Source: Afipia felis ATCC 53690 (GTDB lineage Bacteria > Pseudomonadota > Alphaproteobacteria > Rhizobiales > Xanthobacteraceae). From it: a DNA stretch of 64,000 nucleotides. Shown here in pieces: positions 29,778 to 42,301 of the stretch. The stretch covers positions 2,914,001 to 2,978,000 of the forward strand of contig NZ_KB375270.1 in the NCBI RefSeq assembly GCF_000314735.2, read 5' to 3'. The stretch's first letter is position 1. Each line of letters starts with the position of its first letter. The notes beneath the pieces are model-generated. The model had not been told where the DNA came from and did not search any database. It saw only the letters and a program-made list of their open reading frames with translations. Both the position numbers and the translations under genes were made by a program.

Positions 29778-29993
29778 GAGGATTCTCTGCTGCAGATGTT
29801 GCCGGAGCGTATTCAAAGCTGCCAAAGGTCGCCTTGCCATTATGGGCGATTCCGACAATAGTTGCGATGCTGCACAAGGGGCAAATGAAGCTGAAAAGCA
29901 TAGATTTTTCGAGCCTCACAAGGGATGAAGCGCGTTTAATTGTCGCGTCGGTTTTATTTTAAAATCGACGAAAGTGGAGGCTGTGAAGGCATC

Positions 29994-31097
29994 GTGTCGT
30001 CAAGGAATTCAAAGAATTCGTCGTCTAGCAATCAATCCCTTCGGTTTTTGAAATTGCGGGCGGTCTGGCGATATCCTCTGTCCTCGCAACGAAGGAAGCA
30101 GTGGCGCGAATTCAAAATACGAAGCATTATCGACTTCGTCGAATCCAAGGAAGTTGCTGAGGCATATCGGCACTCTTGCGCATATGCACGACTCTACGAC
30201 GAGTTTGTGAAAAATTCGACAGGGCAATATCCAGCCTCAGATTACCTTGAATGCCGAACATATCCAGCTCGTCCGAAGTCTGGAGTGGCAAAAGTGGTCG
30301 CTTACTATCTTCCGCAATTCCATCCTATTGCCGAAAATGATTTCGCATGGGGCAAGGGTTTTACGGAATGGCGGAATGTGACGCGCGCGTTTCCGCATTT
30401 CGAGGGCCATTACCAGCCGCGCGTGCCGGGTGAGCTTGGCTATTACGACCTGCGCGTTCCCTCCGTGATGGCGCGGCAGGTTGAGTTGGCGAAGCTTCAC
30501 GGAATCTCGGCTTTCTGCTTTCATTTCTATTGGTTCGCGGGCGAGCGGCTGCTCGAACTGCCGATTGATCATTTCCTCAATAACAAGGATCTCGATATTG
30601 AATTCTCGTTGTGCTGGGCCAACGAGAACTGGACGCGGCGATGGGATGGCGGCAAGAATGAGCTTATTCGTGCTCAAGCGCATTCGCCAGAGGATGATGT
30701 CGAGTTCATTCGCTATCTCGGGAAGTATTTTGCCGACCCCCGATACATGAAGGTCGACGGCAGGCCCGTGCTGACGATCTATCGCCCCTCGATCTTTCCA
30801 GACATGGCAGCTACGGTGCTTCGTTGGCGCCATGAAATTAAGAAAATGGGTTTCCCGGGCATCTATCTCATTGCCACCAACTCGTTTGGATTTGCTGACT
30901 ATGAGAAGTTCGGCTTCGATGCGCTTTCGGAATTTCCGCCGCACAATACGAAAATAACCCAACCTCAGACCTTGCAGGTCACCCCGAAGAGGCACGGCGG
31001 ACTTCTCCTTCCATACCCAGCGTTGGTTGAGTATGAGGAACAGAAAGTCTTGCCGGGGGGGTATCATTCACCCTGGCATCATGCCGGGCTGGGATAA
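29994..31097 (+). pseudogene. WbsX-type domain, N-terminal part cut by frameshift
   Basis: GTG start at 29994 with GGAGG upstream; a TTG at 29940 is the alternative. The WbsX (glycosyltransferase, GH99-like) domain begins at VVAYYLPQFHPIAENDFAW and continues through GFTEWRNVTRAFPHFEGHY, FCFHFYWFAGERLLELPID and SLCWANENWTRRWDGG. Just before the end the G7 run at 31055-31061 throws the frame, giving a wrong tail YHSPWHHAGLG. Removing one G continues GGIIHPGIMPGWDNSARRP in the frame of the next entry. WbsX proteins act in O-antigen synthesis. Confidence 0.85.
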
Positions 31098-34000
31098 CAG
31101 CGCACGAAGGCCGCACGACGGGACTATTTTTTACGATGCCAGCCCAAGTCTATTTCGGAAATGGCTGGATGTTTGTTTCGCGCGCGCCAGCGAGAATCCT
31201 CCTGATGAGAGACTTGTATTCATCAATGCGTGGAACGAATGGGCCGAGGGCGCATATCTCGAGCCCGATCGCAGGTATGGGTATGCTTATCTCACGGCCG
31301 TAGCAGATGCTGTAGAAGGGCGGTCGAGCTTTGGCGGCAAGCGGTTCCTAGGTATTGAGGCTTTACAGTCTCTCGAAGCGGAACTGTTCGAGGAGTATGT
31401 GCAGAACGCGCTAAGCGAACAAAAGGCACCAGAATATACAGATGTTGCGGATGAGGAGGCTGAGACCGGCGACGTTCAGTTGATCGCGTATTACCTTCCT
31501 CAGTTTCATCCAATTCCGGAGAATGATCGGTGGTGGGGCAAGGGGTTTACCGAATGGCGAAATGTCGCTCGTGCGTTTCCGCTTTTCGAAGGTCACTATC
31601 AGCCCCGTAAGCCCGGCGAGCTTGGCTATTACGACTTACGCGTGCCTGATGTCATGCGTCGGCAGGTTGAACTGGCGAAATTGTATGGGATCTCGGCGTT
31701 CTGTTTTCATTTCTATTGGTTTGGCGGGAAGCGCCTGCTCGAAACGCCGATAGAAAATTTCCTGAACGACAAGAATCTCGATTTGTCGTTCTGCCTATGC
31801 TGGGCAAACGAAAACTGGTCGCGACGCTGGGATGGAAGCGAGAATGAGATCCTGATGGCGCAAAACCATTCGGACGAGGACGATGAAGCGTTCTTGCGTT
31901 ACCTCGACAAGTATTTCAGGGATGAGCGCTATCTGAAGATTGACGGTAAGCCGGTCCTCACGGTCTATCGTCCCGCGATTCTCAAGGATGCCGCGGCAAC
32001 GACGGCGCGCTGGAGACGGATTGCCAAGGAGCTTGGCTATCCCGACCTGTATCTGATCGCGACGAATGCCTTCAGTTTCAATGACTATGAAAAATATGGC
32101 TTCGATGCGCTGTCGGAATTTCCTCCTCACGTCATACGTGCATCTAATGTTCAGGATGAGATTGCGATGTCTCCGCGGCGCACCGGGTGGCGTGTCAGAC
32201 AGTACGCGGAGATCGTCGAGTCGGAGAAAGAGCGGCTTGGTGATGAAGGGAGAAAGATACACCCTGGCGTCATGCCGTCATGGGATAATTCTGCGCGCAG
32301 ACCTACGAATGGCGAAATCATTCATGGCTCTACGCCAGAGCTTTTCGGGGATTGGCTGCGGCATGCATTTTCGCGTGCCATCAAAAACCCGGAGAATGAG
32401 CGTCTAATTTTTGTTAACGCCTGGAATGAATGGGCCGAAGGTGCCTATCTGGAGCCCGACCAGAGATTTGGCTACGCTTATCTCGAGGCTTGCGCCTCGG
32501 TCGCCCTGGAGTACGTCAACCGGGACGATGAGATTGTTCTCCGTGGTAAAAACAGTCTCTCTTGGGAAATAATCAAGGGCGCTCGAACAAAGCAACAAGG
32601 TGCGAAGACGATTTTGCTGTGTTCTCATTATTCGGGAGCGCAGGTTTTTGGCGCGGAAAGGAGCCTGCTTGACGTTGCCACAGCTCTGAACAGCGCTGGA
32701 TTCGATGTCGTCGCGACGCTGCCGAACAGTTCAAATGCCGATTATATCGAGCAGTTGAAAAAATCCGTCAGTGAAATTCATGCGATTCCATATGGCCAAT
32801 GGGAGTCGAGTCGCTGGAGCGACTATGAAGCGATCGAATCCGTTCAATCATTTGTTTCGGTGATCGATCGCGTTCACCCCGACTTGATATATGCCAACAC
32901 TGTGGTCCTCCGCGCCCCTTTGGTGGCGGCGCGATTCCGGAATGTGCCTGCAATCGTCCATGCGCGAGAGATTGTGGTTCACGATCCGGATATTCGAGCG
33001 CTCATCGGGCTCGAAGCAGAACAGATCGCCGGACAGATCGCCCGTTCAAGTGATTGTATCATTGCGAATTCGAAGACGACGGCCGAAAGCTTCGCTGCTT
33101 GTCACGATCTTGTCGTGATCCCGAACATCATCGACCCCGAACCCTTCGATATGTCGAACGATGTCGTGGACGGCTTGGTGAAATTCGGATTGATCAGCAG
33201 CAATGAGCCGAAAAAGGGGGTGGAAGACTTCATCGAGCTCGCTCGCCTAAGCAAACAGATCGCCTCAAATGCACGATTTCTTGTTATCGGGCAGCAGCAC
33301 TTGGACGGAATCCAGGATTATTTGTCTGGAAAAAAACAATATCCCGACAATCTCAGTTTTGTTGATTATCAGTCATCCGCGATGGACGCGATAAGGCTGG
33401 TCAATGTTGTTGTCAGCACCTCATCTTTCCAAGAATCCTTCGGGCGGACAGTGCTTGAAGGCATGGCTGCGAGCCGCCCCACGCTCGCTTATGATTGGGG
33501 CGCGGTGAGCGAACTCGTCGATCCTAACGTCACCGGCTTCCTGGTGCCATTCAAGAACATCGACGCGGCCGCGCAATGCGTCAAAGTTTTTTGCGAGGAC
33601 ATCGCTCGATTGAAGCGGATGGGAGAAGCGGCAAGACTTCAGGCTCGCGAGAAATGCCGCCTTGACGTATTCCGAGACAAGCTGGCCGAGATTTGCAATC
33701 GCGTTATCGACAATCATCGATGCGATAATCGTGCCTATAAGGATGTGAGTGCCGAGCGACTAGCTCATGTGAACGACAAGACCATTGATGTCGTAGTGTG
33801 CGTTCACAACGCGCTGCAGGACGTCGAGGCGTGCTTGGAGTCAGTCCGTCGTTATCTCGGCGACAAGCATCGGCTGTTGATCGTCGACGATTGTTCTGAC
33901 GAACCGACCCGGTCTTATTTGGCGACGTTCGCGAAACAGCATCCGTCAATCCTGTTGCTGAGGAACGACGAACGCGCAGGATATACAAGGAGCGCCAACA

Positions 34001-35481
34001 AGGGCCTTCAGGCCTCAACAGCAGATCTTGTGATCTTGCTGAACAGTGACACGATCGTGAGCGAACGTTGGGCTGAAAAGATGGCCGATGCCGTTTTTTC
34101 AACCCGGGGGGCCGGCATTGTCAGTCCGATGTCGAACGCTGCGAGCTATCAGTCTCTCCCGGATGTGGAGTCCTCCGGCCCGCAGACGGCGACCAATGAA
34201 CTTCCGGCAAATTGTGGTTCGGGCGACGTTGATCGTTTCTGTGAGGTTACCTCGTATGCCCGTTTCCCAGTAGTTCCCATGGTGCATGGGTTCTGTTTCG
34301 GGATCACGCGCGAGGCTGTGAATTCTTTGGGCTATTTCGATGAAGTAGCTTTCAAGGATGGCTATGGCGAGGAAAACGATTATTGCTTGCGTGCGTTCCG
34401 GGCCGGAATATGGTCCGTCATCGCGACTAATACATTTGTCTACCACGCGAAGTCGAAAAGCTATTCGGCGGCGCGCAGGGCGCCGCTGGCCCGTAAGGGG
34501 CAGGCCCAACTCTATAAGACTCACGGACGATGGTTCTTCAATGCGAACGTAGAGATATTGAAGGAGCATCCCGATTTGGAGCGAATGAGAATCATGTTCC
34601 GCAGGATGTGGCCGAAGGGCCAAAAGCCACAGGACAACTTTGCGGAGCCAATTTGGGGTTCGCCGAAGAACTTATCTCGTCTAGACGACGCCGAATGGCT
34701 GTCGATGCTGAAGAGAAGCGCCAAGTCGAACGTGGTCGACGGGGTCACGTTGCCGAGCTTCCCAGAGGACAGCATCCAGATCGAATCCGTCGGATCGGCG
34801 GGGGAAACGACGGTTGGAGAAGCATTCAACTTCTATTCGCTGATCAGGGATCAGGCAGAAAAGATTGAGCGACCGATCCAGTCCGAGACGAAGATTCTGG
34901 ATTTCGGCGCAGGTTGGGGTCGAATGATCCGGTGTTTCTGGCGCGATGCGGATCCATCGAACATTCACGGCGTCGATGTTTCGGAACGATATTTGACGGC
35001 TGCACGCAAAACCGGAATCGGGAATCTCCGCACCATTTCGCCGACGGGAACGCTGCCCTATCCGGATCATTCATTCGATATCGTCTATGCGTATTCTGTG
35101 TTCACGCATCTGCCGAAGCATGTGCAGGACATCTGGCTTCCCGAGATCGCCCGTGTGTTACGGCCGGGCGGATTGCTTGTGGCGACGGTAGAGCCGCGCC
35201 GGTTCTATGATTTCGTCAAGGATCTGAATGATGAGACCAAGGCGAAACATGTCTGGTACCAGATGCTGTCGGATGCTCTTGCAAGGGTCCCGGATGCAGA
35301 GGATCAACTGGAAAAAACAGGTTTCCTGTTCCTGCCGACGAACAACATAGATACCTATGGTGATACCGTCATGACCCCTGAATATGTTGAGGCGAAGTGG
35401 ACGAGGTATTTCCGTATCCTCGACTATCTCGACGATTCCGAACGGTTCTTTCAGGCCGTCGTTTCTGCGCAGAAGGTCTAG
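31027..35481 (+). CDS. Giant glycan enzyme: WbsX-GT4-GT2-methyltransferase
   Basis: Frame of 1484 codons, in truth the continuation of the entry at 29994 (1828 residues if one G is removed). Residues 1-95 complete WbsX domain 1 ([17 protein letters not shown]). Residues ~148-500 are a second WbsX domain ([20 protein letters not shown]). Residues ~525-870 are a GT-B glycosyltransferase of family 4 ([37 protein letters not shown]). Residues ~918-1165 are a GT-A family 2 transferase ([32 protein letters not shown]). Residues ~1218-1484 are a methyltransferase ([18 protein letters not shown]). It would assemble and cap a repeating glycan. The next gene starts 7 bases downstream. Confidence 0.9.
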   Translation: [1484 protein letters not shown]

Positions 35482-36542: not shown

Positions 36543-37229
36543 ATGACAAAATTTATTGCCTACTATCGCGTGTCTACTGAACGTCAGGGCAAATCGGGAC
36601 TTGGTCTTGCCGCGCAACGCACTAAAGTTGCCAATTATGCTGCTGGCATTGGTCAGATAATCGCTGAATTTTGTGACGTTCAATCTGGTCGGGACGACGA
36701 CCGTTCCGAGCTACAGAAGGCGCTCGCTCTGGCAAAACGCAAGCAGGCTAAGCTGATCATCGCTCGCCTAGACCGATTCTCACGCAGGGTCAGCTTCATT
36801 GCTCAAATAATGGAGCAAGGGATCGGACTGGTCTGCGCCGAGATGCCGAACGCATCAGACTTTCAGTTGCATATTTTTGCCGCACTTGCGCAGGAAGAGC
36901 GTCGGCTGATTTCTGAGCGCACCAAGGCCGCGTTGGCTGAGGCCAGACGACGAGGTAAAGTTCTTGGCTCAAATGGGAAGTATTTGGCAGCGAAGAACCG
37001 TGCCTCCGCGGATGAATTTGCGGTGTCATTCAAGTCAAAATTGAACGCAGAATTATTGGGGCAGTCTTATAGCAAGATAGCGAACCATCTAAACAATAAC
37101 GGCGCGGTCACAGTGACTGGCCGTAAATTCTATGCGCAGACCGTCAAGAATTATTTGAAGCGTCTCGGCTATGATCCAACTGAACCAGCACAACCACCCG
37201 TTACATCACGCGTATTCTGTAACGATTAG
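36543..37229 (+). CDS. Small serine recombinase (resolvase/invertase)
   Basis: Protein of 228 residues. The catalytic N-terminal domain has YYRVSTERQGKSGLG (active Ser in VST), GRDDDRSELQKALALAK, LIIARLDRFSRRV and EERRLISERTKAALAEARRRG (long E helix). The C-terminal ~70 residues contain a Recombinase-type region with HLNNNGAVTVTGRKFY...VKNYLKRLG (DNA-binding HTH), so it is a compact member of the same superfamily as the large recombinase at 40388. Probably a mobile-element enzyme, or invertase for the cluster. Confidence 0.9.
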   Translation: MTKFIAYYRVSTERQGKSGLGLAAQRTKVANYAAGIGQIIAEFCDVQSGRDDDRSELQKALALAKRKQAKLIIARLDRFSRRVSFIAQIMEQGIGLVCAEMPNASDFQLHIFAALAQEERRLISERTKAALAEARRRGKVLGSNGKYLAAKNRASADEFAVSFKSKLNAELLGQSYSKIANHLNNNGAVTVTGRKFYAQTVKNYLKRLGYDPTEPAQPPVTSRVFCND

Positions 37230-37380: not shown

Positions 37381-39900
37381 TCAGATGGCGTCCTTGAAGA
37401 ACTCCAGCACATCCTGATCTAATGGCTCGTGGCTGGACTCGAGAACTGCTAGAGATTTCTTCTTCGAGATATTCCACGTACTCAGATCAAAGACGCCTGA
37501 AAACTTATCCAGTTCGCCAAGGTGATGCAGCGTCGCTATCGTTCTGATGCATTTCGAACACCTGCCGCAATTGATCGGCATATTTGCGTCTTTTCCGGCC
37601 TGATACGGTTGATTTGTACAGACATCGAGATGTTTGTCGGCGAGGTAGCTAATGGCGATATGTTTTGTCTTTTCAGACCGGCTCGCGTCGTAACCAAGTT
37701 CAATGGCGCGAATACCTGGTGGTAAGATGTTGGCTATCGCTGCATGGTCAATGAAATGTATTCCGTGCTCTCGAGCCGTTTTGAACGATATATCCTCGTA
37801 GGCGATTGCCGACGAATAATAGAAGGTGGAGATTGTTGGCGCTAACGCTAAGCATGCTGCTATATTTCTTATTGTCGCGCAATGTACATGCGCCTTCGGA
37901 TAGTGAATGTGGAAATTCGTATCAATTTCAATGATTGGAATGTTTAGTTGCTCGCTGATAGCGGTGATATTTTCAAGCCTGAATTTCCAAGCCGCTCGGT
38001 TATCGTCATGAGCACCGGCATGAATATTTATCAAAAAGTCCGGCTGAAGTTCCCGGCCCAACTTCTCCAGTGAGTAGAATGAATCGACTCCCGCACTAAA
38101 CAAAAGGCCGCTGGCTCCAACCGGAACGGACGTAATTTGCTTGCTGCCATTTCTGATAATTGTCGGTGGCCTCGTTCCATATAAAGAACAAATAAATGGA
38201 GCGAAGCCATACTTGAGGCTCGCGAAGTAAGCATCGTCGAGAGCGGCATTTATTTCCAATGCTACATCGCGTTCGGATGCGATAAGCATAAGCATCGGCA
38301 AAAATGTTTCGATGTTCGGAGAGAGGTTAAGTTTCTCGCCGCCCCGAATTTTTGCTTCTACCCACAATTCTCCATCGCCAGAACTAATAGAAGACCTGCC
38401 GCCCTCGCTGCGAACAGAACCCAATCTCATGTTTGGCTTACGCGCGTACCACGCATCCATATTCTGTTTCGGATCTTCAACGTCTTTCTTCGGCCATCTT
38501 GGTAATTTTGAAGACGATTCGTGAACTTCTGCCGAGTTGTGCTCCAAAACGGGTGCTTCGCAGGTGGAGCACGGCCCCTTTTTCGACACGGGTTGCCGAC
38601 CCTCGGATTTTCCAAACTTAATGTAATGGACAAGGGGGTTCATGCCTGAAGCAAGCACATCCAAGTTTTCACTGAGGTAGAAACCAGTATCAAAATTAGC
38701 GCTCGGATTTCTGCCTTCAAAGCGCCCGAAGTGCACATAGTGCTTTATCGTATCAAGAGATTTGTCCTTGATGTCTGCGTAGGTCTTTCGATACCAGGCT
38801 TCATCGAACAGACCTGATTTCTCGATCAAATTCCGATCGCGTTTGCTTTTTCGGTAAAACTGAGCTTTTTGTATCCTTCCATTTTGAAAGCGATCTCGAC
38901 TGTTAAATGTGGTGACGATACGATCAATTGCCTGAGAGAGATAAGTTCGCTGTGCTTCAACATCTTCCTGCTTTTTACTCTCCTCTCTAAACCACGTTTC
39001 AGACGTAGCGATCTTTGCCAAGTTCTCTGAAAGGTCACTCGACAATTCTTTGGCAGAAACCTCGTCAGCGTCTTCCTTGCCCTCATCGTATGCCAATAGC
39101 TTTAAATAGGCACTAGGCTGGACAGCAAATGGTGCATGTTTAGCGAGAGGAGCAATCTTCGGAAGCCGAATATGCGGCCGTATTGATTGATCGTAAGTGT
39201 ACTGTCCTTCGGTTATGTTTTTCGAAAAACTCCCCTCGAAATTGGCCGAAGCAGCAAAATCATCCCACTTCAAAGGAAGGTCTGTGGGAATGCCAGCATC
39301 CCAAAAACAGAAGGGCGTGCCGTAGGCCGCGGCAGCGATAGCTCCGTGAAGCGATGAAGACAGAACAAACTTCGCGGACGCGATGATATCAATCAATCGA
39401 TAAATGTCAGCTAGTTCAGGTCCGATATTCGGTCGCGCAATGAGATCACATCCGCTGCGGGAAAGGATCTCTTGATCCGAGCGATCATCATTGAAGTGTG
39501 GAATGCAGATCGATTTGTTGCGATATTCTGAAAGCATTATGGGGCGATAAATCGCTGGCAAGACCAGCGCAGAATCTCCGATCGGAACGCGGCCCTCCAA
39601 GCCCAACATTTTGGCGGAGATCGGTCCGCGGACAGCGTAGATTTTGATCTGCTCGCGATTACTAGATTTAAGACCATCAAGCGTGCGAACGCCGCACCCC
39701 CAGAACGACGGCTTCACACCGGCGAAAGCGGCGAGACCTGGTTCAACCCACATATCGTCGATACAGCTGCCGACCAAGTGGATGATCCCGCAGCTTTCGC
39801 TGATGGGGAGAAATAGTCGGTCAAGAAAAACGCGAGTAAGAGAATCACCAAAATTCTGAATATTCTCGCCTTTCAACCAGAACTGTACGCGCTGAAACAT
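37381..39900 (-). CDS. Pyruvyl-transferase-like / PP-loop fusion protein
   Basis: Protein of 839 residues from the ATG at 39900 (MFQRVQFWLKGENIQNFGDS); longer in-frame starts lack support. Residues ~1-235 match polysaccharide pyruvyltransferase (PS_pyruv_trans: ENIQNFGDSLTRVFLDRLF, FVLSSSLHGAIAAAAYGTPF). Residues ~335-445 carry two copies of a repeat (LFDEAWYRKTYADIKDKSLD with HYVHFGRFEGRNPS; then FYLSENLDVLASGMNPL with HYIKFGKSEGR). Residues ~525-830 form a PP-loop-like ATPase: GLLFSAGVDSFYSLEKLGRE in place of SGGxDS, and a QueC-like cysteine cluster NCGRCSKCIRTIATL. The combination is unusual. It may modify a glycan; substrate unknown. Confidence 0.8.
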   Translation of the reverse strand: MFQRVQFWLKGENIQNFGDSLTRVFLDRLFLPISESCGIIHLVGSCIDDMWVEPGLAAFAGVKPSFWGCGVRTLDGLKSSNREQIKIYAVRGPISAKMLGLEGRVPIGDSALVLPAIYRPIMLSEYRNKSICIPHFNDDRSDQEILSRSGCDLIARPNIGPELADIYRLIDIIASAKFVLSSSLHGAIAAAAYGTPFCFWDAGIPTDLPLKWDDFAASANFEGSFSKNITEGQYTYDQSIRPHIRLPKIAPLAKHAPFAVQPSAYLKLLAYDEGKEDADEVSAKELSSDLSENLAKIATSETWFREESKKQEDVEAQRTYLSQAIDRIVTTFNSRDRFQNGRIQKAQFYRKSKRDRNLIEKSGLFDEAWYRKTYADIKDKSLDTIKHYVHFGRFEGRNPSANFDTGFYLSENLDVLASGMNPLVHYIKFGKSEGRQPVSKKGPCSTCEAPVLEHNSAEVHESSSKLPRWPKKDVEDPKQNMDAWYARKPNMRLGSVRSEGGRSSISSGDGELWVEAKIRGGEKLNLSPNIETFLPMLMLIASERDVALEINAALDDAYFASLKYGFAPFICSLYGTRPPTIIRNGSKQITSVPVGASGLLFSAGVDSFYSLEKLGRELQPDFLINIHAGAHDDNRAAWKFRLENITAISEQLNIPIIEIDTNFHIHYPKAHVHCATIRNIAACLALAPTISTFYYSSAIAYEDISFKTAREHGIHFIDHAAIANILPPGIRAIELGYDASRSEKTKHIAISYLADKHLDVCTNQPYQAGKDANMPINCGRCSKCIRTIATLHHLGELDKFSGVFDLSTWNISKKKSLAVLESSHEPLDQDVLEFFKDAI

Positions 39901-39943: not shown

Positions 39944-40282
39944 TCAGCATTTTTGGATAGGGCGGTCAATTGTTCTGCATCCGGTGTCGATGCGATTACA
40001 TGACCCGGCAGATAGTGATGATGGAGGTTTCCTCCCTGATAGGACGTCTTTGTAAATGCCGAGGCAGTCCTCGATCTCCGCGGGAGATAGAGGTTCGAAT
40101 TCGGTCGAGCTTTCGGTCGTAAAGGTGTGGCAGGTAACCCGTGTAGTTCGATTATGCTTGCGACAGATCGTGCAAACCCACGCCTCAAACTGAACGCCGG
40201 TCTTCTCGTTGATGCACGTCGCTTGCACAGTTTTGCTATTGAAACTGCCATCGCGACCAAAGCAGACTTTGCAATACATCAT
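39944..40282 (-). CDS. Zinc-ribbon-like hypothetical protein
   Basis: Protein of 112 residues with paired CxxC motifs: YCKVC near the N-terminus and CTIC about 35 residues on, probably binding one zinc ion. The rest is Thr-rich with an acidic helix (SPAEIEDCLGIYKDVL). ATG at 40282 follows GAGG; a GTG five codons upstream is possible. It lies 43 bases upstream of the fusion gene on the same strand and may be co-transcribed with it. Function unknown. Confidence 0.6.
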   Translation of the reverse strand: MMYCKVCFGRDGSFNSKTVQATCINEKTGVQFEAWVCTICRKHNRTTRVTCHTFTTESSTEFEPLSPAEIEDCLGIYKDVLSGRKPPSSLSAGSCNRIDTGCRTIDRPIQKC

Positions 40283-40387
40283 CTGACCCGGCCTCACGAT
40301 TTAGCCGCTGGAAAATAAAAGATCGAAAAATGACGCGTTGAAGTCGTGGATATTTCCCTACGTGGCAGCACTATTCGATTAGTGCTC

Positions 40388-42112
40388 TTAATAGCCCTCG
40401 ACTTCGCTTTCTTCGTCCATCGTATAGCGATCTAGCTCATTTCCGTCAGGATCCGTCAGAATGAACAGGTCGTCCTTCTTGCGGATGATCTTAAGAATTT
40501 CCGCTGGCTTTTTGGGATTAACGAAAACCATCAAGTGAGCACCGTCGCAAAAGTTCACCTCGAACTGCTGCTCGCTCTCATCATTCTCGATCAGCAATTC
40601 TAAGCTTTTAAGTAAAGATTGTAAGCGGGATGCGATCTGGGACCGAATTCTGTAAACGCTCTCGCCTTTCGTTGACCGAACCTTTTCGACCAAATCCGCA
40701 ATCTGATTTTTATCGCCGTAATAGAGCAGGGCATTGCTATCGAGCTGAGCAATCTCGGCACGAATTTCATTGATGTCTGTTTTTACTTTTTCGATTGCGG
40801 GCTCGATCTCCTCAATCTTTCTTGCCAGAAACTCGCTTGATCTGCCCAGCTGAACGCCGGTCTCGAACAAAACTTCAAGCTCCCTTTCAAGGTATTTCTG
40901 CTTCCCTTCCGTGGCCTCAAGTTTGGCGACCGTATCGGCTCGCTTTCCTGCATGCGTCGCTGATGAGACAAGCGATGCGAGGTCCAGCTTCTCTACAAGG
41001 GACAGAAAGGCTTTTTCAAAGTCGTCGTAGCGCCACCATGTTTTATGATCGCATCCAGAACGGCGCATCGCGCTCGAGCACGCCAAATATGAATTGGTTT
41101 TGGGTGGCTTTCCCTTCTGCACATAGGACATCGGATTTTTGCAATATGCACAGACCGCAAGCTTAGAAAACAAATTAGGGTAGTTAAGACCCTTGCGGCC
41201 GCCACTTCCTTTCTTTTCCGCCGTTGGCATAGTCTTGCGCGAAAGTCGTGCGAGCTGAACCGCGTCGAATGTCTCATCCGGGATAATAGCGGGGAAGTAA
41301 TCCTTGATCGGTGCTCCTTCCGGAAGACGCTTGCCGTTCAATCTCTTGTGGGGTTGAAATTCGCCCACCACGGCCTTGTTGCTCAGCAGTTTGTTGACGG
41401 TCGACGGCTGCCAACCACCTTTGCCAAGAAAAGTCGATACGCCTTCCTGATTCAGATGCTGGACGATAGAGTAGGCGCCCAAGCCAGCTAAGGCATCGGC
41501 ATAGATACGACGCACTTTGCCAGCCTGTTCCTCTACGACCGTGAAAGTCGATCGATCGGCCGAAAGCTTCAGCCAGTTAGGGCATTGCGCGGTTAGCTTT
41601 CGTTCGCTGCCATGCCGTCGTTTATTCAGCCACGCCTGGCTAAGCCGGTCGCTCTTTCGGGCGGATTCTTCGTTCGCCCGACTCATCTTGGCAATGGAGA
41701 TGATCAGGTCTTCGAAGGAGATGTTGCCGCTGAATACGCGCTCGTCGTCCAGGGTGACGAGGTTGATTCCAGCCTTCACAAGCTCCAGGAATGGTCCGAG
41801 AGCCACTATCGGCTCCTGACGGCTCAGCCGATCGAACGATTCGACGAGCAGATAGGACCCCTGAGGTATCTCACCCCGTCGAACGGCCTCCAGGAAGCGT
41901 CCAAAGTTGCCTGAGGCGATATTCTGGCCGGTAAAGCCCGACTTGCCGATGTCGTGGAGATCGAACTCCTGATCCAGCTGGAGGTCATGGGCGAGGGCGT
42001 ACTTCTGGGACCGCTCCTGCTGGCGACGGAGGCTGTCGCCCTTCAGCTGGATGTCCGTCGACATGCGGACGTACGAGAAGGCTTTGGGGCGATCTGGCGG
42101 GCTCCTATCCAT
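40388..42112 (-). CDS. Large serine recombinase (integrase)
   Basis: Protein of 574 residues with all parts of the large serine recombinase family. Catalytic domain: FSYVRMSTDIQLKGDSLRRQ (Ser in VRMST), LLVESFDRLSRQEPI and SIAKMSRANEESARKSDRL. A Recombinase domain follows (IVQHLNQEGVSTFLGKGGW). A zinc ribbon is present: CAYCKNPMSYVQKGK ... YLACSSAMRRSGC. The C-terminus is a long coiled coil (LEATEGKQKYLERELEVLFE). Such enzymes integrate and, with a directionality factor, excise islands at one att site. Its start is only ~20 bases from a nuclease-gene remnant, so it marks the island end. Confidence 0.92.
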   Translation of the reverse strand: MDRSPPDRPKAFSYVRMSTDIQLKGDSLRRQQERSQKYALAHDLQLDQEFDLHDIGKSGFTGQNIASGNFGRFLEAVRRGEIPQGSYLLVESFDRLSRQEPIVALGPFLELVKAGINLVTLDDERVFSGNISFEDLIISIAKMSRANEESARKSDRLSQAWLNKRRHGSERKLTAQCPNWLKLSADRSTFTVVEEQAGKVRRIYADALAGLGAYSIVQHLNQEGVSTFLGKGGWQPSTVNKLLSNKAVVGEFQPHKRLNGKRLPEGAPIKDYFPAIIPDETFDAVQLARLSRKTMPTAEKKGSGGRKGLNYPNLFSKLAVCAYCKNPMSYVQKGKPPKTNSYLACSSAMRRSGCDHKTWWRYDDFEKAFLSLVEKLDLASLVSSATHAGKRADTVAKLEATEGKQKYLERELEVLFETGVQLGRSSEFLARKIEEIEPAIEKVKTDINEIRAEIAQLDSNALLYYGDKNQIADLVEKVRSTKGESVYRIRSQIASRLQSLLKSLELLIENDESEQQFEVNFCDGAHLMVFVNPKKPAEILKIIRKKDDLFILTDPDGNELDRYTMDEESEVEGY

Positions 42113-42129: not shown

Positions 42130-42301
42130 ATTGTTGGTAATTGTCCACAATATCTTCAATGTCGGGCCGGATAAGTATAACGGCCGGGTGGTCGCCGATG
42201 TCGCAACGCGAACCACGCCAAATATTTCCGCTGCGCTGATCGCAGCAGGCCACGGCCGGCCTTATAGCGGCGGCCGCCGCGCCGGCTGGTGTCCGAACTA
42301 A
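42130..42301 (+). pseudogene. 3' remnant of a thermonuclease (SNase) gene
   Basis: Reads IVHNIFNVGPDKYNGRVVAD followed by ISAALIAAGHGRPYSGGRRA and ends WCPN. This is the C-terminal third of secreted SNase-type nucleases (DKYGGRVxADV ... ALIAAGxARPYxGGRRxxWC). The 5' part is missing and the sequence changes abruptly to the recombinase gene upstream, so the island is inserted inside this gene. The other half should lie at the far end of the island, outside the window. Confidence 0.85.

Follow-up and report, generated by a model that had tools for sequence, protein, structure and literature searches.

Known ketal-pyruvyltransferases take pyruvate from phosphoenolpyruvate (PEP), and their product is a sugar carrying a free carboxylate. 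In the PP-loop superfamily, ATP activates a carboxyl or carbonyl group, which is then passed to a nitrogen or sulfur nucleophile. Examples of such activation are given in PMC13329287. We analysed a stretch of 64,000 nucleotides from Afipia felis ATCC 53690 (contig NZ_KB375270.1, positions 2,914,001 to 2,978,000; hereafter the window), in which a single gene joins a domain of the first kind (PS_pyruv_trans-type pyruvyltransferase, PSPT) to a PP-loop domain resembling that of QatC. An earlier note on this DNA, made from the sequence alone, had divided the predicted protein into a pyruvyl-transferase-like domain, a pair of repeats and a PP-loop domain, and all three parts are present. The gene exhibits the following features (window coordinates):

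37381..39900, minus strand: gene of the fusion protein, 839 amino acids (aa), with PS_pyruv_trans domain, linker helix, EGR repeats and QatC-like PP-loop domain
39061..39900, minus strand: PS_pyruv_trans (ketal-pyruvyltransferase-like) domain, residues 1-280
39628..39630, minus strand: Arg91 of VRGP, invariant among the PSPT sequences aligned; putative role by analogy with the CsaB arginines
39346..39348, minus strand: His185 of SLHG, probable counterpart of CsaB H308 and Pvg1p H339
39268..39270, minus strand: Lys211, probable counterpart of CsaB K328
38596..38796, minus strand: two WYxxxYxDI..HYxxxGxxEGR repeats, residues 369-435, of low model confidence
37384..38400, minus strand: QatC-like PP-loop domain, residues 501-839
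38080..38097, minus strand: PP-loop SAGVDS, residues 602-607
37549..37620, minus strand: four-cysteine site C761, C778, C781, C784 (C-x16-CxxCxxC), probable zinc site

The open reading frame (ORF) of the fusion starts with an ATG at 39900 on the minus strand; upstream of this codon the same frame stays open as far as 40260, and translation from a TTG at 39969 would yield an alternative product of 862 aa. In the N-terminal domain, PF04230 matches residues 55-198 (E-value = 6.6e-10) with 39.8 bits, above the gathering cut-off of 25.3. Residues R91, H185 and K211 are invariant in both PSPT alignments (26 and 22 rows); as these alignments contained no CsaB row, the correspondence with CsaB R148, H308 and K328 is one that we infer. 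The same genome holds a PSPT paralogue (G000 C1:773638-774456; L103:9527-10630, plus strand; G and L numbers are our handles for genomes and loci), 60% identical to the N-terminus of the fusion. It comes after phage head-protease, major-head and tape-measure genes, with two unassigned ORFs between, and the ORFs of its 20 kb include no PP-loop gene.

The C-terminal 339 aa exhibit no Pfam family above cut-off. The earlier note had recognised a PP-loop here from SAGVDSFYS and a CGRCxxC cluster, and had named structure prediction as a check; the model of the domain (pLDDT 91.6) falls within the PP-loop fold, and PP-loop enzymes predominate among the structure matches listed. Both motifs, SAGVDSF (residues 602-608) and NCGRCSKC (777-784), are kept in 17 protein-database homologues. 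In an alignment of 114 family rows, the loop FS[GA]GVDSF is conserved at S (112 rows), G (114), D (114) and S (108), and the four cysteines are 98-100% conserved. Since many of these rows are genome loci retrieved with the peptide FS[AG]GVDSF[YA], the loop conservation is partly by construction, whereas that of the cysteines is unaffected. At the second position of the loop, 83 rows have G and 31 have A, so that SAG is a normal variant; the idea of a degenerate loop was rejected on the same count. In predicted fold and motifs, the C-terminal region corresponds to a PP-loop domain whose phosphate loop is intact and whose cysteine site resembles that of QueC. The likeness to QueC drawn in the earlier note holds for this site but not for the nearest solved fold, which is that of QatC (PDB 9Y01 and 9Y02), N- and C-terminal extensions included.

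Searches of PDB by sequence gave nothing significant, whether made with the full protein or with either profile (PSPT and PP-loop). In NCBIfam, no match was obtained for the PP-loop part of the window protein or for 17 of the 18 domain rows scanned, the single match being to an argininosuccinate-synthase-related model (4.8e-4). The WbpG-type model, which we take to be present in NCBIfam, was not listed for the full protein (E-value up to 0.05) or for the 18 domain rows (up to 0.001). A second, distant PP-loop relative of 414 aa is encoded in the same genome (G000 C1:1272023-1272271; L104:9747-10991, minus strand), and the surrounding 20 kb include no PSPT-like ORF. At L049, L033, L035 and other loci the PP-loop gene is present in two to four diverged copies in tandem, which could encode subunits of a hetero-oligomer. 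One viral contig (L152:4737-7283) encodes an 848-aa protein in which a PP-loop domain is joined to an Asp/Arg hydroxylase domain and to additional C-terminal sequence.

Gene neighbourhoods link the PP-loop family to PSPT well beyond the window. Loci were confirmed by one peptide pattern in genome contigs (138) and by two patterns in viral contigs (16); 80 of the 138 were kept, of which five were dropped, the gene caller having found no PP-loop gene there. Among the immediate neighbours scanned (66 of 71 upstream and 65 of 70 downstream, the other ten being left out), PSPT is the top Pfam family, with 4 of 66 upstream (the next families have three each) and 11 of 65 downstream; family-2 glycosyltransferases account for 5 of the 131. 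Three genes away (111 neighbours, each shorter than 900 aa and off the locus start), the family-2 glycosyltransferases lead with 10 and PSPT accounts for at most one, among the first 25 families listed at each position. Adjacent and third positions differ in PSPT content with a Fisher p of 0.001, taking 1/111 for the latter. In several loci the two ORFs, each called from its earliest possible start, share 1-17 bases (L008, L074, L064 and L028) or abut (L061 and L055). A second clear fusion, of 724 aa, exhibits the opposite order, the PP-loop domain preceding PSPT (L045; 30.7 bits for PSPT against the cut-off of 25.3). In viral contigs, a sub-threshold PSPT match (20.1 bits) lies ahead of the PP-loop domain of L154, and a PSPT-like ORF follows two PP-loop copies in L156. 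In a later sample of the window's order, covering six of the seven other genomes with a match (G303 was left out), our own profile found an adjacent PSPT-like ORF in two of six loci, overlapping the PP-loop gene in L177; for L175, where a PSPT-like ORF was not found, the caller returned no gene layout.

Altogether, PSPT is adjacent or fused in 18 of the 92 usably labelled family members, window included, and the genome records of these 18 come from 11 phyla. The label was assigned with our own profile at an E-value of 1e-2 and placed on a quick tree of 114 rows, of which 17 protein rows are unlabelled and 5 of the remaining 97 have no usable label. The label changes 16 times on this tree, at least nine of the changes being forced by starred branches, compared with a mean of 16.7 for shuffled labels. 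Being no more clustered than the shuffled labels, the pairing is therefore not one inherited arrangement. From these comparisons of sequence and gene order, we consider it very probable that the PSPT and PP-loop domains are functionally coupled.

Several observations weigh against a close partnership or against its application to the window. An immediate PSPT neighbour is absent in 74 of the 92 labelled members, so that PSPT is not an obligate partner. The unclustered label fits repeated pairing, but it also fits a loose association within glycan loci. The three weakest adjacency assignments (L028, L038 and L055) have profile E-values of only 8e-4 to 4e-3. For the clade nearest to the window (P0002-P0015, 14 other rows) no neighbourhood could be read, and the link there thus rests on the window's own fusion. 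The fold match of the PSPT domain is unspecific, UDP-sugar 2-epimerases scoring about as high as Pvg1p. In the full-length model, which was compared with structures by VIA alignment, both domains are of high confidence, but their arrangement relative to each other is of low confidence (pTM 0.50). Finally, a narrow literature search returned no report of amidated pyruvate ketals.

The earlier note had suggested that the protein may activate a pyruvyl or acyl group and transfer it to a glycan. The recurrent adjacency and the second clear fusion agree with joint action of the domains on a pyruvylated glycan; ATP activation for pyruvyl transfer is not supported. As known enzymes use PEP, that transfer should need no ATP, and the PP-loop step more probably comes after pyruvylation or alongside it. 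We thus propose, tentatively and at slightly less than even likelihood, that the window carries a mobile cargo gene encoding a bifunctional glycan-decorating enzyme, in which pyruvylation would be followed by an ATP-driven amide-type modification. As suggested by its family, fold and conserved residues, the N-terminal domain would form a pyruvate ketal on a sugar, with PEP as the donor. The QatC-like domain would then bind ATP at SAGVDS and adenylate a carboxyl or carbonyl group of that glycan unit; the newly added pyruvate carboxylate is the simplest candidate, another carboxyl of the unit a further one. An amine or ammonia would attack the adenylate to give an amide-type modification, as PP-loop/QueC chemistry and the coupling to PSPT suggest. 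Amide formation is the simplest way to unite a free ketal carboxylate on a sugar with PP-loop activation chemistry. The sequences show the architecture, the predicted folds, the conservation, the recurring coupling and the mobile context; that both domains are active, share one substrate and yield an amide-type product is inferred from the coupling and from family chemistry. Of the parts of this proposal, it is reasonably probable that the PP-loop domain acts on a glycan or glycan precursor, and rather doubtful that the pyruvate ketal carboxylate itself is amidated.

The strongest alternative, though a somewhat unlikely one, is that the two domains serve different parts of one glycan pathway and are joined only for co-expression, the PP-loop domain making an activated or amidated sugar precursor, unrelated to the pyruvate ketal, in the manner of WbpG. 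The many family members with no immediate PSPT fit this idea. The other genes around the family fit it too, as they fit the bifunctional enzyme: flippases are frequent neighbours, Asn_synthase and glycosyltransferases also occur, and L033 holds a GATase_7 protein near the PP-loop gene. The GATase_7 and Asn_synthase proteins could be a source of ammonia, or could simply be common in glycan loci. Mere co-expression accounts less well for the preference of PSPT over glycosyltransferases exactly at the adjacent position, and for a second clear fusion in the opposite order.

Alternatively, the PP-loop domain might modify a protein, as Cap9 and probably QatC do, for example switching on its partner PSPT. 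QatC is the nearest solved fold, N-terminal extension included, and both QatC and Cap9 work with a protein partner according to PMC13279940. However, in the window the two domains form one chain, and ten family-bearing genomes lack QueC and PTPS (see below). Moreover, only 2 of the 25 PSPT-like ORFs listed (L022 and L024) open with Met-Gly or with GTG and a Gly codon, these starts being assigned mechanically. We regard protein modification as improbable. A role in phage defence is a shade less probable still. The gene lies between recombinases and its fold is closest to QatC, but the PADLOC QatC model has no match in nine of ten family members scanned and one of E-value 0.023 in the tenth, and the fused partner is a sugar enzyme. 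The KAP NTPase and TatD, products of qatA and qatD, are absent among the first 25 neighbour families listed; qatA, qatB and qatD were likewise not seen in the window genes scanned or in those families, qatB being without a Pfam model. Sulfur transfer to a sugar by a ThiI-, TtuA- or LarE-like PP-loop enzyme is highly improbable, as such structures score far below QatC and C-x16-CxxCxxC lines up with the zinc cysteines of QueC and QatC, four in number, instead of the three of an Fe-S set.

Conjugation of a 7-deazaguanine base, as by QueC or Cap9, was weighed by means of 26 hand-chosen family-bearing genomes. The superfamily fold of QueC speaks for it, and the window's own genome has both QueC (E-value = 5.5e-70) and PTPS/QueD. 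Across genomes, the family does not follow the preQ0 pathway: a true QueC, defined by our own threshold of a match better than 1e-50, is present in 12 of the 26 and absent in 14 (18 of the 26 match PF06508 at 0.001, the matches short of a true QueC being weak). A PTPS/QueD match is also absent in 10 of these 14; QueE was not searched for, and salvage is possible. The locus-derived genomes have no completeness value; G365, G104, G218 and G381 are 98-100% complete. In three of the ten genomes without QueC and PTPS (L012, L021 and L177) the PP-loop gene lies beside PSPT, and for members of this type a deazaguanine substrate is unlikely because of that lack. PF06508 occurs in 2 of the 65 downstream neighbours, at least one of which, in L056, is QueC by its motifs. 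In this Acidobacteria metagenome-assembled genome the QueC gene (L056:8867-9586, plus strand) directly adjoins the PP-loop family gene, a possible exception to the argument. Given this neighbour and the QueC of the window's genome, the argument does not cover every member; even so, base conjugation is the least probable of the alternatives.

Returning to the bifunctional enzyme, its repeats (residues 369-397 and 407-435) lie largely within a region of pLDDT below 50 in the full-length model (residues 378-475). EGR units also occur in further large proteins, within the genus as well as in the family and the order. Among six EGR-bearing ORFs scanned, three have family-2 glycosyltransferase (GT2) domains, one of them together with a methyltransferase domain, and three have no match. 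The repeats look like a shared module of glycan enzymes, standing outside any catalytic triple, and may act as a connector or anchor common to other glycan enzymes of related bacteria.

The three-domain combination, with which the earlier note was unfamiliar, is indeed rare. A search at fusion length among 2771 candidates found only the window's own protein cluster (four member sequences on two contigs), and in 60 other genomes no listed match spans both ends of the fusion. The PP-loop domain alone finds 17 relatives of 356-432 aa in the protein search (E-value up to 0.001). The family is present in 8 of 397 genomes of the window's order, its own included (E-value 1e-10), a patchiness consistent with horizontal transfer. 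On plasmids, two Paracoccus records match with 27% identity, and no PSPT is annotated near the match in the one examined. Among the papers listed by full-text searches of the openly licensed PMC literature, judged by title and start of abstract, none linked a PP-loop or QueC-like protein to a pyruvyl transferase. The fusion is a rare protein that combines a sugar enzyme of known kind with a QatC-like domain of an undescribed family.

The fusion gene lies at the edge of a glycan-gene region of lower G+C (48-52% over 36-42 kb of the window) than the stretch after it (58-66% over 42-54 kb). Its immediate surroundings are:

40388..42112, minus strand: large serine recombinase flanking the fusion gene; mobile element
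36543..37229, plus strand: small serine recombinase (resolvase/invertase) on the other flank
39944..40297, minus strand: small putative ORF with two CxxC motifs, travelling with the recombinase element; its codon-position G+C is unusual

As judged from these flanks, the fusion gene is mobile cargo between recombinases. The earlier note had taken the small ORF for a zinc-ribbon partner of the enzyme, but the ORF tracks with serine recombinases: of 150 other genomes, two have a relative, and these two belong to the same genus and lack the fusion. In G021 the relative adjoins a large serine recombinase 52% identical to that of the window. The order of elements there is the same (large recombinase, small CxxC ORF and a resolvase piece identified by eye), with a different 296-aa ORF in between as cargo; a partner role was rejected on this ground. 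The related G021 element and the phage-adjacent PSPT paralogue fit our hypothesis that the cargo may serve surface conversion.

Large serine recombinases related to that of the window adjoin, in L169, L170 and L171, pieces which we take by eye to be ComM/YifB-like, and which are a likely insertion site. Beside the large recombinase of the window, at about 42140-42300 (plus strand), the end of a staphylococcal-nuclease-like gene seems to remain (identified by eye), perhaps an edge of the insertion. Two plus-strand ORFs, 29940-31097 and 31027-35481, divide the first WbsX domain between them: its end is read in a different frame, at the beginning of the second ORF, which encodes a 1484-aa WbsX-GT1-GT2-methyltransferase protein.

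The comparative evidence that PSPT and PP-loop enzymes of these types work together is good, as far as sequences can tell, and the glycan product of the pair is a prediction. In its widest form, which we regard as unlikely, an unnamed and widespread QatC/QueC branch would work on sugars instead of bases, would with a ketal-pyruvyltransferase activate the ketal carboxylate by ATP and couple it to an amine in an undescribed modification, and would be present here as a two-step pathway in one recombinase-cargo gene. If this is true, a single transfer could alter the cell surface, for instance against phages. A testable glycan modification is thereby predicted for a family without a name in the Pfam, NCBIfam and PADLOC scans made, and annotators have a reason to handle PSPT/PP-loop gene pairs as one unit. 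The QatC reaction could not be reconstituted in vitro, according to PMC13279940; a widespread QatC relative tied to a sugar enzyme is an independent handle on QatC-type active sites beyond deazaguanylation.

Compared with the ketal-pyruvyltransferases CsaB, Pvg1p and WcfO (PF04230), the window's domain differs in being fused to a PP-loop domain, and the protein misses the CsaB equivalog cut-off (14.2 against 213.1 bits). Fusions of PSPT with a glycosyltransferase occur in the same genus (G012, G017 and G026), with a related N-terminal PSPT 41-42% identical to that of the window; in G017 (L105), the sole one scanned, the C-terminal part is a GT1-type glycosyltransferase and not a PP-loop domain. 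WbpG-type N-acetyl sugar amidotransferases are likewise PP-loop ATP enzymes of surface-glycan synthesis, but with a different cysteine pattern, CxxC(x)6CxC (PMC13329287). QueC (PF06508) and Cap9 of type IV CBASS share the PP-loop core and the zinc cysteines with the window family, though their matches span only model residues 95-296 and the profile probability against QueC is 12% (hhalign). With the window domain and five relatives, PF06508 was absent from the matches listed at E-values up to 10, the HMMER filters dropping most matches above 0.1. The zinc site of QueC, C(x)8CxxCxxC, keeps a different spacing from C-x16-CxxCxxC, but all four cysteines of the window family align with those of QueC and QatC by hhalign. 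QatC has lost the nucleobase-recognition residues of QueC, as stated in PMC13279940. Its profile (9 of 11 fetched rows) is closer to QueC (97%; 7 of 12 fetched proteins used) than to the window family. Beyond the PADLOC result given above, the window family is set apart from QatC by the cysteine spacing C-x16-CxxCxxC and by its partner, a pyruvyltransferase.
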